A stretch of DNA of 64,000 bases from Pirellulales bacterium (GTDB lineage: Bacteria > Planctomycetota > Planctomycetia > Pirellulales > JACPPG01): the NCBI GenBank assembly GCA_036490175.1, contig DASXEJ010000227.1:1-64000 (forward strand), read 5' to 3'. Numbering within the stretch: position 1 is the first letter of the stretch; every line of letters starts with the position of its first letter. The notes beneath the pieces were generated by a model. It had not been told where the DNA came from. It did not search any database and worked only from the letters and a program-made list of their open reading frames with translations. Made by a program: the position numbers and the translations under genes. This document shows, piece by piece, positions 17,254 to 23,371 of the stretch.

Positions 17254-18099
17254 TCACGCCGCGGCGGGCGTTGGTTGATTGCGCCAGCTGGCGGCGTCTT
17301 CGCCGTCGAGCCGCAGGGTCAGGCACTTGGCGCTGCCACCGGCCTTTACGAACTCGTCGAGCGGCATCTCACGTGGCGAGAAGCCACGGTCCGATAGCGC
17401 GCGATGAAGTTCGGGGCAGCCGGTATTCGTGATCACGGTAGGTCCTACGACCACGGCGTTGCAAGCAAATCGTTGCGCTTCGGCGCGACTGACTGGGACC
17501 AACTTCGGCACCAGCTCCTTCAATACCGCGGCACCGTAGGCGTCGAACGCGCCCGGATAATAAATGGCCACGCCGGGCGCGAGAGGGCAGAAGCATGTGT
17601 CGAGATGGTAGTAGTAAGGATCGACCAACTCCAGCGGAATCACGCGGCAGCCGAGCCGGGCACCGATCCATTGATGGGCCTGCGCATCGCTGCGCAGACG
17701 GTAGCCGGCAAACAGTGTGTCGCCGCAAAACAGCGCGTCCCCCGCGCCTTCGAAATTAAAGCCCGCCGGAATGTGCTCCACGCGAAATTCGTGATCGGTA
17801 AGCCAGCCCTCGTCGTGCGGTTCCTCCCCCTGACGCTCGCTGTGCCGAAAGCGCGCCAACAGGGCCACATCGTGATACAACAACGCTGCGTTGGCAGTAA
17901 ACACAAGGTCCGGCAGGCCCGGCACTGGCGACATCGTGATCACGTCTGCCCCGGCCGATTCGATCGTCGTTTTCAACGATTGCCATTGGGTACAAGCGGC
18001 CGCATGATCGCTCGGACGTTCGCGGTGCATCCAGGCGTTGATCTCGTATTCGATTCCGTAAAACTCAGGCGAGCACATCAAGATGCGTGGTTGCGTCAT
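17254..18099 (-). CDS. Arginine dihydrolase-like (guanidino-group modifying) enzyme
   Basis: The 281-residue protein belongs to the amidinotransferase/DDAH-type guanidine-modifying superfamily. The catalytic cysteine is Cys259 in GGSAKCLTLRL, the histidine is His165 in YYYHLDTCFCPL, and acidic residues sit in NFEGAGDALF (Glu117, Asp121). It resembles the N-terminal half of cyanobacterial ArgZ/AgrE, which turns arginine into ornithine, CO2 and ammonia. Asn21 and Asn70 fall where that family has asparagines reported to matter for the second hydrolysis. Its start overlaps the stop of the upstream gene (ATGA at 18096-18099), implying translational coupling. A DDAH or plain arginine deiminase activity is the alternative. 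Confidence 0.85.
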   Translation of the reverse strand: MTQPRILMCSPEFYGIEYEINAWMHRERPSDHAAACTQWQSLKTTIESAGADVITMSPVPGLPDLVFTANAALLYHDVALLARFRHSERQGEEPHDEGWLTDHEFRVEHIPAGFNFEGAGDALFCGDTLFAGYRLRSDAQAHQWIGARLGCRVIPLELVDPYYYHLDTCFCPLAPGVAIYYPGAFDAYGAAVLKELVPKLVPVSRAEAQRFACNAVVVGPTVITNTGCPELHRALSDRGFSPREMPLDEFVKAGGSAKCLTLRLDGEDAASWRNQPTPAAA

Positions 18100-19370
18100 G
18101 GTGCGACCTCGCTTTCCATCTCGGCCAGTTCTTGCACCAACGCGCGCAAAAAAGGTTCGACGTCGGTCACGATTCCCACCGTTTGAAACGAACCGCGATC
18201 GTTGAGCTTGATCACGGTCGACGGATTGATGTCCGCGCACACGACCTTTACCCAGGCGGGTAGCAAATTCCCCACCGCGATCGAATGCAACGTCGTGGCG
18301 ACCATCAGACAGAACGTCACGTCGCGACTCTTGGCGCGCATCTGCCGTTGTGCATCCAGGACGTCCGTAATCACCTCGGGCAGCGGGCCATCGTCGCGAA
18401 TGCTGCCGGCCAGCAGGAAATCAACGTGGTGCCGCACACATTCGTACATGATGCCCGAGGTCAGAAGGCCCGTCGCCACGGCTCGTTCGATGCCACCGGC
18501 GCGACGTATGCGATTGATCGCGCGCAGATGGTGTTCATGCCCAGCCTCGGCCGAAGCCCCGTGGCTCAGATGAACTCCCAGGCTGGTGCCGAACAGCGCC
18601 TGCTCGATATCGTGCGTGGCCAGCGCGTTGCCGGCGAACAGCACGTCGACATACCCCTCGCGAATCAACTGACAGACATGTTCACCGCTGCCGGTATGGA
18701 CGATGGCCGGTCCCCCCACCAGCAGCGTTCGTCCGCCGTCGGCGCGAGTACGACTCAGCTCGCGAGCAATCTCACGGATGGCGATGCCCTTGGGCTTCTC
18801 TGTCGAGACGCTGCTCCCCATGAATTCGAACATGTGGCGTTGTGCGGTGCGTTCCTGTGGGAAAACCCGCACGCCGGCATGGCCGACGATGATCAGGTCT
18901 CCCTTGCGGACGTCTACCATCGGCAGGCAGCGTGCCTGCTTGCGGTCGAGCGAAACAACGAGGCCGCAGTCCATCTCCTGATCGGCGACTTCGGTCCAGT
19001 GGCCGTCGAGACGTACTTCCGTGCGTTGATTCGTCGTGCTGTAAAATCCTTCGGGGAAGGCCGAGTCCATGTCGGCCGCTTCCAGGCGGCAATCTTGCCA
19101 CACCGTGGGAACGGCGCCGTGGTCGCTGATCTGTGCCAGGATGTCCGCCAAACGCACCGCGTCGCCGGCCTGCACTTCCACCAGCGCGTAACTAGGGTCG
19201 CTGCGGGCCTGACCAATCGCGATTTGCTTGATGCAGAATGTTCCGCCCAGGCTGGTGATTACGTCCAGCACCTTGGGCAGGATTAAGCTGTCGATGATGT
19301 GGCCGCGAATCTCGACTTCTTCGACGAACGCGGCAGTCCCCTGAGGGACTTCATTGATGGCGGTTTTCAT
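18096..19370 (-). CDS. Ornithine cyclodeaminase-like protein (LOR/SDH, TIGR00300 type)
   Basis: The 424-residue protein matches the LOR/SDH conserved-region family, which includes the C-terminal half of cyanobacterial AgrE and archaeal-type ornithine cyclodeaminases converting ornithine to proline and ammonia. Recognisable blocks are VEIRGHIIDSLILPKVLD, LVGGPAIVHTGSGEHV, VLFAGNALATHDIEQALFG and the C-terminal FQTVGIVTDVEPFLRAL. Some family members are thought to use a nickel-pincer nucleotide; that cannot be read here. It is the first gene of a two-gene operon with the arginine dihydrolase-like gene. The ATG at 19370 opens the conserved region. Confidence 0.85.
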   Translation of the reverse strand: MKTAINEVPQGTAAFVEEVEIRGHIIDSLILPKVLDVITSLGGTFCIKQIAIGQARSDPSYALVEVQAGDAVRLADILAQISDHGAVPTVWQDCRLEAADMDSAFPEGFYSTTNQRTEVRLDGHWTEVADQEMDCGLVVSLDRKQARCLPMVDVRKGDLIIVGHAGVRVFPQERTAQRHMFEFMGSSVSTEKPKGIAIREIARELSRTRADGGRTLLVGGPAIVHTGSGEHVCQLIREGYVDVLFAGNALATHDIEQALFGTSLGVHLSHGASAEAGHEHHLRAINRIRRAGGIERAVATGLLTSGIMYECVRHHVDFLLAGSIRDDGPLPEVITDVLDAQRQMRAKSRDVTFCLMVATTLHSIAVGNLLPAWVKVVCADINPSTVIKLNDRGSFQTVGIVTDVEPFLRALVQELAEMESEVAP

Positions 19371-19706
19371 ACCGGCCCCCAGCAAAGCGTAGGGTGACAA
19401 CCTGCGAATCGCCAGTCGGAACGACCCGGCCGATTTCGCGCGGGCTTGCGCGCAGAGAAGGGACTGACAGCACGCGCGAGACCCGTTAGGATCAATTCTA
19501 GGTTGGCCCGCAGATTTGGGCCATCAGACTCGTATTAATCGCGCCCACCGGAATCGGGCTGGGCGAGCATAACTCGAAGCCCTGCCGACACTTCACAACG
19601 GCAAGGGACGCCTCTATACTGCAGCTCAGGCAGCCTTTCAAGATCCCGGGTCCGACCCACTCTGGTGGACCCGTTGTCAACGATAACGTAACCAAGAGCA
19701 AGCGTT
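19371..19706. other. Divergent intergenic region with a hairpin in the plus-strand leader
   Basis: This 336-base gap should hold promoters for the minus-strand arginine pair and the plus-strand disordered protein. GGGTCC (19648-19653) and GGACCC (19667-19672) form a hairpin about 35 bases before the plus-strand start. No recognised riboswitch or gene was found. Confidence 0.45.
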
Positions 19707-21077
19707 ATGACTGACTCACCGGATACAAACCGCTGGGAAGAATTGGCGAAGGAGCTGGGCGCCGAGGTTAAACCGAGCACGCCACCGCCGAAGCCGGCGG
19801 CAGCCCCTCCCGCGGCAGCGCCCCCCCGACGCACGAGCGAGACACCGCGCACGGCGCAGCGGCCGACGGCCGATTGGTCGCACCTGGCGGCCGATCTAGG
19901 AGTGACCCCGGCGGCGGCCCCTCCGCGACGTCCGGAACGCACCGTCCCGCCGCGAGCCGTACCTCCCAGAGTCGAACAGGAACGAGTGGACCAGCAACGA
20001 GTGGACCAGCAACGAGTGGAATCGGCGCGCAGCGAAGCCTTGCCTGCCGAAGCAGCTCGCCCGGACGCGTCCCGATCCGAAGGGTCGCGATCAGAGCCAC
20101 CGCGATCAGAACCGTCGCGCTTGGAAACGACCCGCTCCGAATCACCGCGCACCGACGCACCCCGCCGCGAACCACCGCGACGCGACTCATCGCGGCACGA
20201 TCGTGGGCGAGGCGCTTCAGGGCGATCCAACCGACCGCCTGAGCGTCCGCACGCGCCGCCGGCGCAGCGGGGACCGGTTCCGCGCGCCGAGCATACGAGT
20301 CCGCCCGAGCGCGTTCGTACGTCGCCCGAGGACTTTGATGAAGAATTCGCCAGCGACGAAATCGAAGAATTGGTCGATTTCACCTCGACTGATGCACCGG
20401 GCGATATCGCCGAAACGGCGTCGGGCGAAGGGGAACGCAAGACAGGCCGTCGACGCCGTCGTCGCCGACGCGGCCGTGGCAAATCGGCAGACAGTTCCCC
20501 CAAGGCGCCTCGCGAGCCTGGCAACTGGGATGAAGATTCCGCACCACTATCAGACACGAATGAAGACATAGCCGACGATGAGTTTTCCGCCAGCTCGGAG
20601 ATAGAGCAACTGGAAGGCGCCGACGAGCCGGCAAGCTCTGGCGAGCGCGGTCCGTCGGAAGAACGTGGGCGTCCACGCCGCCGTCGCCGTCGTCGCGGTG
20701 GACGCCGCAACGGCGAGAACAAGGAACCGACCGCCGCGCGACGCGACGAGCCCAGATCGGACGAGGCCCGCTACGAGGATCGCCCGATCGCTGATAAAGA
20801 GATTGATGATGATTCCGACGACGATGATTTCGATCTGCCGTTGCACGGTATCCGTGAGCCCGACGATTCCACACTGGACGACCACGACCACGACCACGAC
20901 CACGACGATGATGACGATCACGATTTGAAGGCCAATCATCGCGGCATTCCCACTTGGGATGAGGCCATCGGTATGATTGTCGGCGCGAATCTCGAAGCCC
21001 GCGCGAAGAATCCCGGCGGACAATCCAGTTCGCGAGGCCGCCGTGGCAACGGCCGCGGACGTTCGCACGGACGATAG
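19707..21077 (+). CDS. Long disordered, charge-patterned protein with WxxLAxxLG motifs and RG tail
   Basis: The 456-residue product is mostly low complexity. It has two N-terminal W-x-x-L-A-x-x-L-G motifs (residues 10-18 and 57-65) separated by Pro/Ala-rich sequence. A VDQQR tandem repeat and SEP/SER-rich repeats follow. Two arginine blocks (near 255 and 330) alternate with acidic stretches, and a His-Asp repeat (four HD units) lies near 395. A conserved-looking segment IPTWDEAIGMIVGANLEARA sits near 414, followed by an Arg/Gly tail. Arg/Gly and Arg blocks suggest RNA binding, as in the tails of RNase E-type scaffolds; this is inference. No Shine-Dalgarno sequence is obvious. Confidence 0.8.
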   Translation: MTDSPDTNRWEELAKELGAEVKPSTPPPKPAAAPPAAAPPRRTSETPRTAQRPTADWSHLAADLGVTPAAAPPRRPERTVPPRAVPPRVEQERVDQQRVDQQRVESARSEALPAEAARPDASRSEGSRSEPPRSEPSRLETTRSESPRTDAPRREPPRRDSSRHDRGRGASGRSNRPPERPHAPPAQRGPVPRAEHTSPPERVRTSPEDFDEEFASDEIEELVDFTSTDAPGDIAETASGEGERKTGRRRRRRRRGRGKSADSSPKAPREPGNWDEDSAPLSDTNEDIADDEFSASSEIEQLEGADEPASSGERGPSEERGRPRRRRRRRGGRRNGENKEPTAARRDEPRSDEARYEDRPIADKEIDDDSDDDDFDLPLHGIREPDDSTLDDHDHDHDHDDDDDHDLKANHRGIPTWDEAIGMIVGANLEARAKNPGGQSSSRGRRGNGRGRSHGR

Positions 21078-21117
21078 CCGATGATGGTGGCCGTTGCCCT
21101 TACCAGGAGACCAGGCG

Positions 21118-22116
21118 GTGAAGATACGTTTGACCTTGGCGTGTGCTCTGCTGGCCTTGGTGGGTTGCGCCGCGGAAAAGCCGTCGGACGGCGCGAGCGC
21201 AAACGGTGCGAAGACCTACCGCATCGCCGTGATCCCCAAGGGGACGACGCATGAATTCTGGAAATCGGTTCATGCCGGCGCCGAGCAGGCTGCCAAAGAA
21301 TTCGGCAATGTGGAAGTAATTTGGAAAGGTCCGTTGCAGGAGAGCGATCGCGAGGGACAGATCTCGTTAGTGCAAGATTTCGTCACAAGCCGTGTCGACG
21401 GCATTTGCCTGGCGCCACTCGATTCGCAAGGCTTGATCGCGCCAGTGCGGGCGGCCAAGGCCGAGGGTATTCCCACGGTCGTCTTCGATAGCGCCCTGGC
21501 GGCCGACGAGGACGACATCGTCAGCTACGTCGCCACGGACAATTATCACTGTGGCGCGATGGCTGCGCAAGCGATGGCCAAAATGCTCGACGGCAAGGGG
21601 CGCGTGATCCTATTGCGTTACAGTCCCGGCAGCGAAAGCACCGAGCAGCGCGAGCAAGGATTCCTCGATACGCTGGCCAAAGAGTCGCCTGGCATCGAGA
21701 TCCTGTCCAGTAATCAACATTCGGGCACGTCGTTCGAGAATGCCTTCTCAGTCAGCCAGCAGCTGTTGCTCAAGTTCGATAAACAGGTTGACGGTGTCTT
21801 TACCGTGTGCGAACCGAACAGCACCGGCATGCTGAGGGCATTGTCCGAACGCGAGGAATTGGCAGGCAAGGTCAAGTTCATCGCTTTCGATCCCAATTCT
21901 CGACTGATTCAGGCCATGAGCGAGGGCACGGTACACGGTATCGTGCTGCAGGACCCCGTGAAAATGGGATACCTGGCCGTCAAGGCTATGGTCAATCATC
22001 TTACCGGCCAGCCGACGGAGAAACGCGTCGCGATCGAGGAATTCATCGCCACTCCGGCCAACATGAGCGAGCCTGAGATGGCCAAATTGCTGACGCCCGT
22101 CCAGTTCGAGGATTAA
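21118..22116 (+). CDS. Sugar-type ABC transporter substrate-binding lipoprotein, orphan
   Basis: The 332-residue protein has a lipoprotein signal (LALVGCAAE, lipidated Cys17) and a periplasmic binding protein type 1 (RbsB-like) fold. Typical segments are YRIAVIPKGTTHEFWKSVHAGAEQAA, VDGICLAPLDSQGLIAPV, GIPTVVFDSAL and VHGIVLQDPVKMGYLAVKAM. It would bind a sugar or similar ligand outside the cytoplasmic membrane. No matching permease or ATPase is nearby. The GTG at 21118 is preferred because AGGAG lies just upstream and the lipoprotein signal begins there. ispG follows after 100 bases in the same direction. Confidence 0.88.
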   Translation: MKIRLTLACALLALVGCAAEKPSDGASANGAKTYRIAVIPKGTTHEFWKSVHAGAEQAAKEFGNVEVIWKGPLQESDREGQISLVQDFVTSRVDGICLAPLDSQGLIAPVRAAKAEGIPTVVFDSALAADEDDIVSYVATDNYHCGAMAAQAMAKMLDGKGRVILLRYSPGSESTEQREQGFLDTLAKESPGIEILSSNQHSGTSFENAFSVSQQLLLKFDKQVDGVFTVCEPNSTGMLRALSEREELAGKVKFIAFDPNSRLIQAMSEGTVHGIVLQDPVKMGYLAVKAMVNHLTGQPTEKRVAIEEFIATPANMSEPEMAKLLTPVQFED

Positions 22117-22216
22117 TATCGGTCGCGGATCGCGGTTCTAGTAGCATCAGAGGGCAAAAATACCGTACCGGTGCCAACAGGCACGCGACGCGATTCAACG
22201 AGGGAGCGGATACCAA

Positions 22217-23371
22217 GTGGAAATGAAACGTAATCCGACACGTGCCGTGCGAATCGGCACCGTTACGATTGGTGCCGACCATCCGGTGGCCGTGCAAAGC
22301 ATGACCGCCACTCACACGCAGGACGTGGCCGCCACCGTGACCCAGGTCAACGCATTGTTGGATGCCGGCGCCGACGTGGTGCGAATCGCAGTCGATAGCA
22401 GCAAGGATGCCGAGGCGCTGGCCGAGATCCGCCAGCAGACCAAAGCTAATCTTTCTGTCGATTTGCAAGAGAATTATCGCCTGGCCACCCTCGTGGCCCC
22501 GCACGTCGATAAGGTTCGCTACAACCCGGGGCATCTGTATCACCACGAGCGAACCAAGCCTTGGCAAGATAAGGTGAAGTTCCTGGTCGACGTGGCGGTA
22601 GCGAACGATTGCGCCATGCGCGTGGGAGTGAATTGTGGCTCGGTCGACCCGGCTGTGGCCGACAAGTTTGCACCCGGCGACTCGCTGTCACCGATGCTGG
22701 CCAGCGCCCTGGAGCATTGCGAGTTATTGGACTCATTGGGCTTTACACGGTACTGCGTGTCGCTCAAGGATTCCGATCCGTCCAAAGTCGTGGAGGTGAA
22801 TCGCCGCTTCGCCGCCGCCCGGCCCGACGTCCCCTTGCACTTGGGCGTCACCGAGGCTGGCATGCCTCCGGATGGTGTGATCAAGACGCGGATCGCCTTC
22901 GAGCAACTCATTAGCCGTGGAGTAGGCGATACGATTCGCGTATCGCTCACGGTGCCCAACAATCGCAAGCCGGAAGAGATCGCCGCCGGCCGTGCGATCT
23001 TGGCCGACATCGCCGTCGGACGCGTACGCAGCGTGGTCGATTACGGTCTCGATACGCTTAACATCATCAGTTGCCCGAGCTGTTCGCGGGTCGAGAACGA
23101 GGCCTTCATCGATTTGGCTCAGCAAGTCAAAGAGATGACGACTTACGCCCGCGACTACGCCATCACCATCGCAGTGATGGGCTGCCGTGTGAATGGCCCC
23201 GGCGAGACCGATGATGCCGATCTAGGGCTGTGGTGCGGACCCAACGTGGTGAATCTCAAGCGCGGTGCCGCCGAGTTGGGGGCCTTCCCCTATGACGCCA
23301 TTCTGCCGAAGCTGAAGGCCGAACTCGACGCGCTGATCGCCGAGAAGTCCGCCGTAGGATCGCCAGGCTGA
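22217..23371 (+). CDS. ispG: (E)-4-hydroxy-3-methylbut-2-enyl-diphosphate synthase
   Basis: This 384-residue iron-sulfur enzyme catalyses the penultimate step of the MEP isoprenoid pathway. The start [20 protein letters not shown] and the [14 protein letters not shown] and VRYNPG blocks are typical. The [4Fe-4S] ligands are Cys286 and Cys289 ([12 protein letters not shown]) and Cys323 ([10 protein letters not shown]), with the fourth ligand Glu330 in the same motif. It is the short two-domain form without the plant-type insertion. GTG at 22217 fits the GGGAG upstream; an ATG two codons later is possible. It converges with the methyltransferase gene, leaving 14 bases. Confidence 0.96.

Follow-up and report, generated by a model that had tools for sequence, protein, structure and literature searches.

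Most of the degradosome scaffolds known so far form the tail of an RNase or of a helicase. In Pseudomonas aeruginosa, Arg-rich motifs in the tail of RNase E bind RNA and make foci, and PNPase and RhlB are docked by further short motifs (PMC11964227). The cyanobacterial protein RebA is reported to be an interacting inhibitor of RNase E (PMC10783494). For planctomycetes, a review (PMC3071783) gives an RNase E of 509 to 588 aa and no degradosome. In the literature that we searched, no description was found of the gene family that is the subject of this study or of a planctomycete scaffold serving RNase E in trans.

The protein that we analyzed, 456 aa long, disordered, and modular, is encoded on the plus strand at positions 19707 to 21077 of the window, the term used here for the whole stretch of 64,000 nucleotides under study. 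The plus frame is conserved in relatives across dozens of genomes, and a 395-aa open reading frame (ORF) antisense to it is therefore regarded as a shadow. All of the parts that follow lie on the plus strand. The N-terminal region contains a first tryptophan motif, W1 (WEELAKELG, residues 10 to 18; positions 19734 to 19760), a Pro/Ala-rich linker spanning the interval between motifs (residues 21 to 52; 19767 to 19862), and a second motif, W2 (WSHLAADLG, residues 57 to 65; 19875 to 19901). A long region rich in R, S, P, and E leads to Arg block 1 (RRRRRRRRGRG, with eight consecutive Arg residues; residues 248 to 258; 20448 to 20480), which is followed by an acidic stretch, by Arg block 2 (RRRRRRRGGRR, with seven; residues 324 to 334; 20676 to 20708), and by a strongly acidic tract (residues 371 to 408, net charge of −17; 20817 to 20930) that contains the repeat (HD)4 (20883 to 20906); both Arg blocks are presumed to bind RNA. 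The C-terminal module, which we call IPTW (ANHRGIPTWDEAIGMIVGANLEARAKNP, residues 409 to 436; 20931 to 21014), occurs throughout the order to which the window genome belongs and includes the segment IPTWDEAIGMIVGAN, which with its conserved extension spans 20946 to 21014. The protein ends in an RG-rich tail (residues 437 to 456, net charge of +6; 21015 to 21074), with the RG tail proper at 21033 to 21062. The sequence-only reading of this DNA had listed two WxxLAxxLG copies separated by a Pro-rich linker, alternating Arg-rich and acidic blocks, a single conserved-looking segment, and an RG tail; each of these was located, and the segment, IPTWDEAIG, proved to be conserved as far as LEARAKNP.

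The composition of the protein is 15.8% R, 2.2% K, 11.0% D, and 10.7% E (21.7% for the two acidic residues together), with 11.8% P and 10.3% A. Among 20,000 composition-preserving shuffles of the protein, none yielded even one copy of WxxLAxxLG and none yielded two Arg runs of at least six residues; at the DNA level, the window holds three matches to WxxLAxxLG against 0.2 expected, two in this gene and one at position 18099. The gene's DNA contains tandem repeats of 15 bp and 6 bp. The His-Asp repeat is, as had been proposed, encoded by a microsatellite (6-bp unit, 20878 to 20906, 4.8 copies, 100% match), but the suggestion that it forms a module did not survive comparison, since it is absent from all three close relatives compared; it is a product of lineage-specific slippage and not a conserved module.

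In an AlphaFold2 model based on 23 alignment rows, the mean pLDDT is 51, with 274 of the 456 residues falling below 50, and helices are predicted at residues 9 to 16 (W1), 57 to 63 (W2), 94 to 105 (a weak additional helix), and 417 to 434 (IPTW, where the block mean pLDDT reaches 91), the remainder being disordered. Residues that are invariant across 23 rows comprise W10, L13, and G18 in W1, W57 and G65 in W2, R325 in Arg block 2, and H411, I414, P415, W417, and N428 in the IPTW module. The W motifs, Arg blocks, IPTW module, and RG tail are 61 to 86% identical to their counterparts in three close relatives, whereas the linkers are 13 to 59% identical (34 to 59% for the Pro/Ala-rich linker); for the segment of Arg block 1 alone, the range is 68 to 86%, against 13 to 42% for its flanks. 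Arg-rich segments are thus conserved amid variable linkers, a feature of RNase E scaffold domains, and the prediction of intrinsic disorder broken by short helices that could serve in recognition likewise fits those domains. No Pfam domain was found in the ORF, and a search for the family in Pfam, NCBIfam, PHROGs, and PDB sequences matched no known family; two PDB matches (E values of 0.03 to 0.05) were dismissed because they aligned only to low-complexity stretches.

With a 44-aa query taken from the C terminus, 32 of 40 relatives gave a match. The use of a profile (A1; E ≤ 0.001) raised this to 37 of the 40, with one strong match apiece in all 35 good-quality genomes, and the three relatives that it missed are assemblies that are 73 to 81% complete; a second copy of the IPTW module was represented in the same genomes only by weak matches. 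The full ORFs of relatives keep the identical order W1-W2-Arg-Arg-IPTW-RG, with all modules present and one copy of the gene per genome. ORF 19707 to 21077 belongs to a conserved, one-copy gene family. When a profile made from the order only was run on 391 genomes of the phylum, all 24 matches fell within the class, and six of them were in a second family of genomes, f21. The ORFs from f21 share features that lay outside the search query, namely Arg blocks and an R-rich tail, together with W..LA.DLFG wherever the N terminus fell inside the retrieved stretch, and the C-terminal modules of the order and of f21 aligned profile to profile with an E value of 1.5e-14 over 17 columns. A mixed profile (E ≤ 0.05) matched 132 of 248 class genomes, including 69 of 70 in the order (the exception being G493) and 62 in f21, where at least five genomes were missed; it gave one dubious match, to a 128-aa frame, in f106 and none in f22, f23, f104, or f105. 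An f21-specific profile, run on 42 genomes, recovered four of six genomes of f21 for which the match had been weak or lacking (E values of 3e-6 to 0.07), left G307 and G354 of f21 and G493 of the order unmatched, and produced no credible match in 35 genomes of f22, f23, and f104 to f106. A further scan returned 47 loci, of which 46 were titled as planctomycetes, many of them Pirellulales; the order is probably Pirellulales. The sequence-only reading had named confinement of the motifs to close strains as the result that would tell against it and had proposed a search for both motif types in other planctomycetes; both types persist across the order and, in altered form, in f21.

Upstream of the gene lies a divergent pair (17254 to 19400, minus strand) that encodes an ArgZ-like/LOR-SDH C-terminal enzyme (PF21570, PF04455) and a DDAH-like hydrolase (PF19420), and at many loci across the order this pair adjoins the family gene. 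Downstream (21094 to 23371, plus strand) are genes for a sugar-binding periplasmic lipoprotein (PF13407), which about 14 clustered loci also have downstream, and then ispG (GcpE); in four f21 loci, mtaB is directly downstream of the family gene. The ArgZ-like/DDAH-like pair, the lipoprotein, and mtaB were considered as clues to function, and none of them explains it; no conserved neighbor tying the family gene to RNA genes was found in its own order. A scan for promoters and terminators gave only consensus matches.

A scaffold domain of RNase E is covalently joined to the catalytic domain, and the 456-aa protein is not: RNase E in the window's own genome is a separate gene (G000:C382). All but one of 25 relatives had a detected RNase E, in frames of 505 to 786 aa, as did 193 of 198 genomes across the class; in G020 and G311, a family match was present and an RNase E match was not detected. 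In a tally of 150 frames among the matches listed, RNase E frames of at least 700 aa were few in the order (3 of 36) and in f21 (1 of 38) and predominated in f22 (29 of 31), f23 (36 of 39), and f104 to f106 (5 of 6), which amounts to 4 of 74 in lineages with the family protein versus 70 of 76 in lineages without it, and a number of the exceptional frames begin close to the end of a contig. The additional residues lie within the S1 domain. The S1 insert measures 48 to 89 aa in each of 24 genomes of the order and 35 to 47 aa in each of 16 genomes of f21 (33 aa at a further f21 locus, L196), and it measures 214 to 943 aa in each of 20 genomes from class lineages without the family protein. The long inserts have a disordered look; Arg blocks and acidic tracts feature in many of them, with Arg runs of at least six residues in 10 of 18. 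Profiles of W1, W2, and IPTW found no convincing match in RNase E inserts, the best having an i-E value of 0.012 (DSWDELATNL). A tree built from the RNase E core (68 of 76 rows, eight having been dropped because the anchor was absent) places the long-insert lineages outside the pair formed by the order and f21. This placement suggests an older insert that the ancestor of the pair lost; the two are weakly supported sisters (90/38), and the cis/trans pattern may therefore rest on one event. In other classes of the phylum, RNase E is either short (about 510 aa) or extended elsewhere, and no family member was detected in these classes in the 391-genome sample. A short RNase E thus does not require the family protein, and the trade-off was observed for the class Planctomycetia only. 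The extensions of RNase E in other classes (L388 to L403) are disordered and lie at the N terminus, in S1, or at the C terminus. In four genomes of family f71 (G111, G126, G141, and G227), the RNase E model matches in two pieces, which suggests an insertion inside the catalytic region.

A short motif, FGxG[IL], was found in RNase E inserts and in family members. A set of 18 RNase E inserts holds 20 copies of its strict form, spread over 13 of them, against 0.10 expected from shuffles; the count took 18 of the 20 inserts, L218 and L226 having been left out for want of the regex boundaries, and L226, outside the count, shows FGAGI. The f21 set yielded 23 matches in 15 of 23 real sequences (shuffles, 0.05), the set of 25 having held two wrong ORFs (L246 and L248), which were removed for the profile search of the inserts, and family members of the order yielded 8 matches in 7 of 69 (shuffles, 0.10); other ORFs contained 8 in 106,263 aa. 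As regards homology to the RNase E tail or insert, f21 members and inserts have FGxG[IL] in common, and W1, W2, and IPTW are not shared. A keyword-free scan of 10 genomes with a DNA pattern gave 52 matches to FGxG[IL] versus 7 to the reversed pattern, and the nine least hydrophobic contexts, in a ranking that took in 51 of the 52, belonged to RNase E inserts in three cases, to family members in two, and to Rho and a DExH helicase in one each, with ORFs of only 37 and 76 aa making up the rest. Strict FGxG[IL] was present in the N-terminal regions of Rho at 4 of 20 loci; motifs of this type were noted in the N-terminal disordered regions of Rho at L271, L276, L284, L285, and L286. The DExH helicase, with DEAD, Helicase_C, and DUF3516 domains, was found in 15 of 24 genomes (L357 to L371), and in 11 of these 15 it carries F[GA]x[GA][ILV], strictly FGxG[IL] in eight; the motif is at or near the C terminus in four f23 genomes. 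This helicase was considered as a universal partner and rejected, as 9 of the 24 genomes, the window's own included, had no match. Among RNase E sequences of other classes, 2 of 16 have FGxG[IL] (L394 and L399). The motif is absent from the window protein and from the Rho of the window genome, which also has no helicase match, so that the link to RNA enzymes runs through the family.

The sequence-only reading, which is partly supported, had likened the protein to an RNase E-type scaffold, and this likeness is supported by the cis/trans pattern and by a motif common to RNase E, Rho, and the DExH helicase; the HD repeat fell away as a module. We lean slightly toward the view that the protein is a stand-alone disordered RNA-decay scaffold whose work in trans would match that done in cis by the disordered part of RNase E. 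The Arg blocks and RG tail would hold RNA, the W helices and the IPTW helix would offer docking sites for proteins, RNase E and/or its partners being the probable ones, and the acidic stretches may tune multivalent, possibly condensate-forming, binding; the ancestor of the order and f21 would have lost the RNase E insert, the work of which would have moved to the family gene. The P. aeruginosa tail, which binds RNA through Arg-rich motifs and docks enzymes through others, provides a precedent for this logic. Only tentatively do we extend the proposal to the class: in Planctomycetia the RNase E scaffold may have split off from an ancestral disordered S1 insert, since lost, and FGxG[IL] may be a docking motif for a putative shared hub, one that would tie RNase E (or the scaffold serving it in trans) together with Rho and the DExH/DUF3516 helicase into one decay-termination network.

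It is possible, albeit unlikely, that the protein is an RNA-associated polyampholyte scaffold independent of RNase E, such as a ribosome-, Rho-, or transcription-linked hub, and that the RNase E pattern is a coincidence confined to one clade. Such a hub would be compatible with a cis/trans switch that may be a single event, with the occurrence of FGxG[IL] in the Rho of some genomes, and with the ability of other classes to manage without both a long RNase E insert and the family protein, but it leaves unexplained why the keyword-free scan returned RNase E three times, the most of any protein in a disordered context, and why RNase E inserts have Arg blocks as well as FGxG[IL]. We think it improbable that the protein condenses DNA or the nucleoid through its Arg blocks: motifs shared within the family point to RNA enzymes, and histone-like proteins are strongly positive and Lys rich, whereas here R and K (15.8 and 2.2%) are nearly balanced by D and E (11.0 and 10.7%), even though Arg-rich blocks can bind any nucleic acid and planctomycete nucleoids have been described as condensed. 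Little probability attaches, likewise, to a scaffolding role in some other process, such as division, envelope construction, or cell shape, with membrane or a structural protein as the target of the W helices; the modeled helices are short and partly hydrophobic, but the RG tail and Arg blocks, and the FGxG[IL] that f21 members have in common with RNA enzymes, argue against it. That the ORF is low-complexity DNA devoid of function, as its repeat-rich sequence and the long antisense ORFs might hint, is contradicted by one-copy conservation across families and by motifs that are kept while linkers vary, and it can be set aside.

Were the protein an RNA-decay scaffold acting in trans, it would show how hubs evolve, with a scaffold encoded apart from the nuclease and traded against a long insert, and it would provide a handle on planctomycete RNA decay, on which the literature searched held little. 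The sharing of FGxG[IL] makes a hidden RNA-decay network testable.

Of the known systems, BR-bodies, the RNase E-organized RNP bodies (PMC10412687), resemble the proposed arrangement in that a charge-patterned disordered scaffold is proposed to gather decay enzymes, and they differ in that the family protein is separate from RNase E. RebA (PMC10783494) is also a separate conserved protein proposed to work with RNase E; it differs in being reported as an interacting inhibitor. With the noncatalytic scaffold region of gammaproteobacterial RNase E (PMC4435900, PMC11964227), the protein shares disorder and a biased composition, the presence of tandem repeats and of segments rich in Arg, and conserved motifs of short length set in free linkers, but it is the product of a separate gene without a nuclease domain, and its WxxLAxxLG and IPTW motifs were not found in RNase E. 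The S1 insert of RNase E in f22, f23, f104, and f106 differs in being part of RNase E and in having neither an IPTW module nor a clear W1 or W2; it has FGxG[IL], absent from the window protein, in common with the f21 members, and it resembles the family protein in being long and disordered looking, with Arg blocks between acidic stretches.
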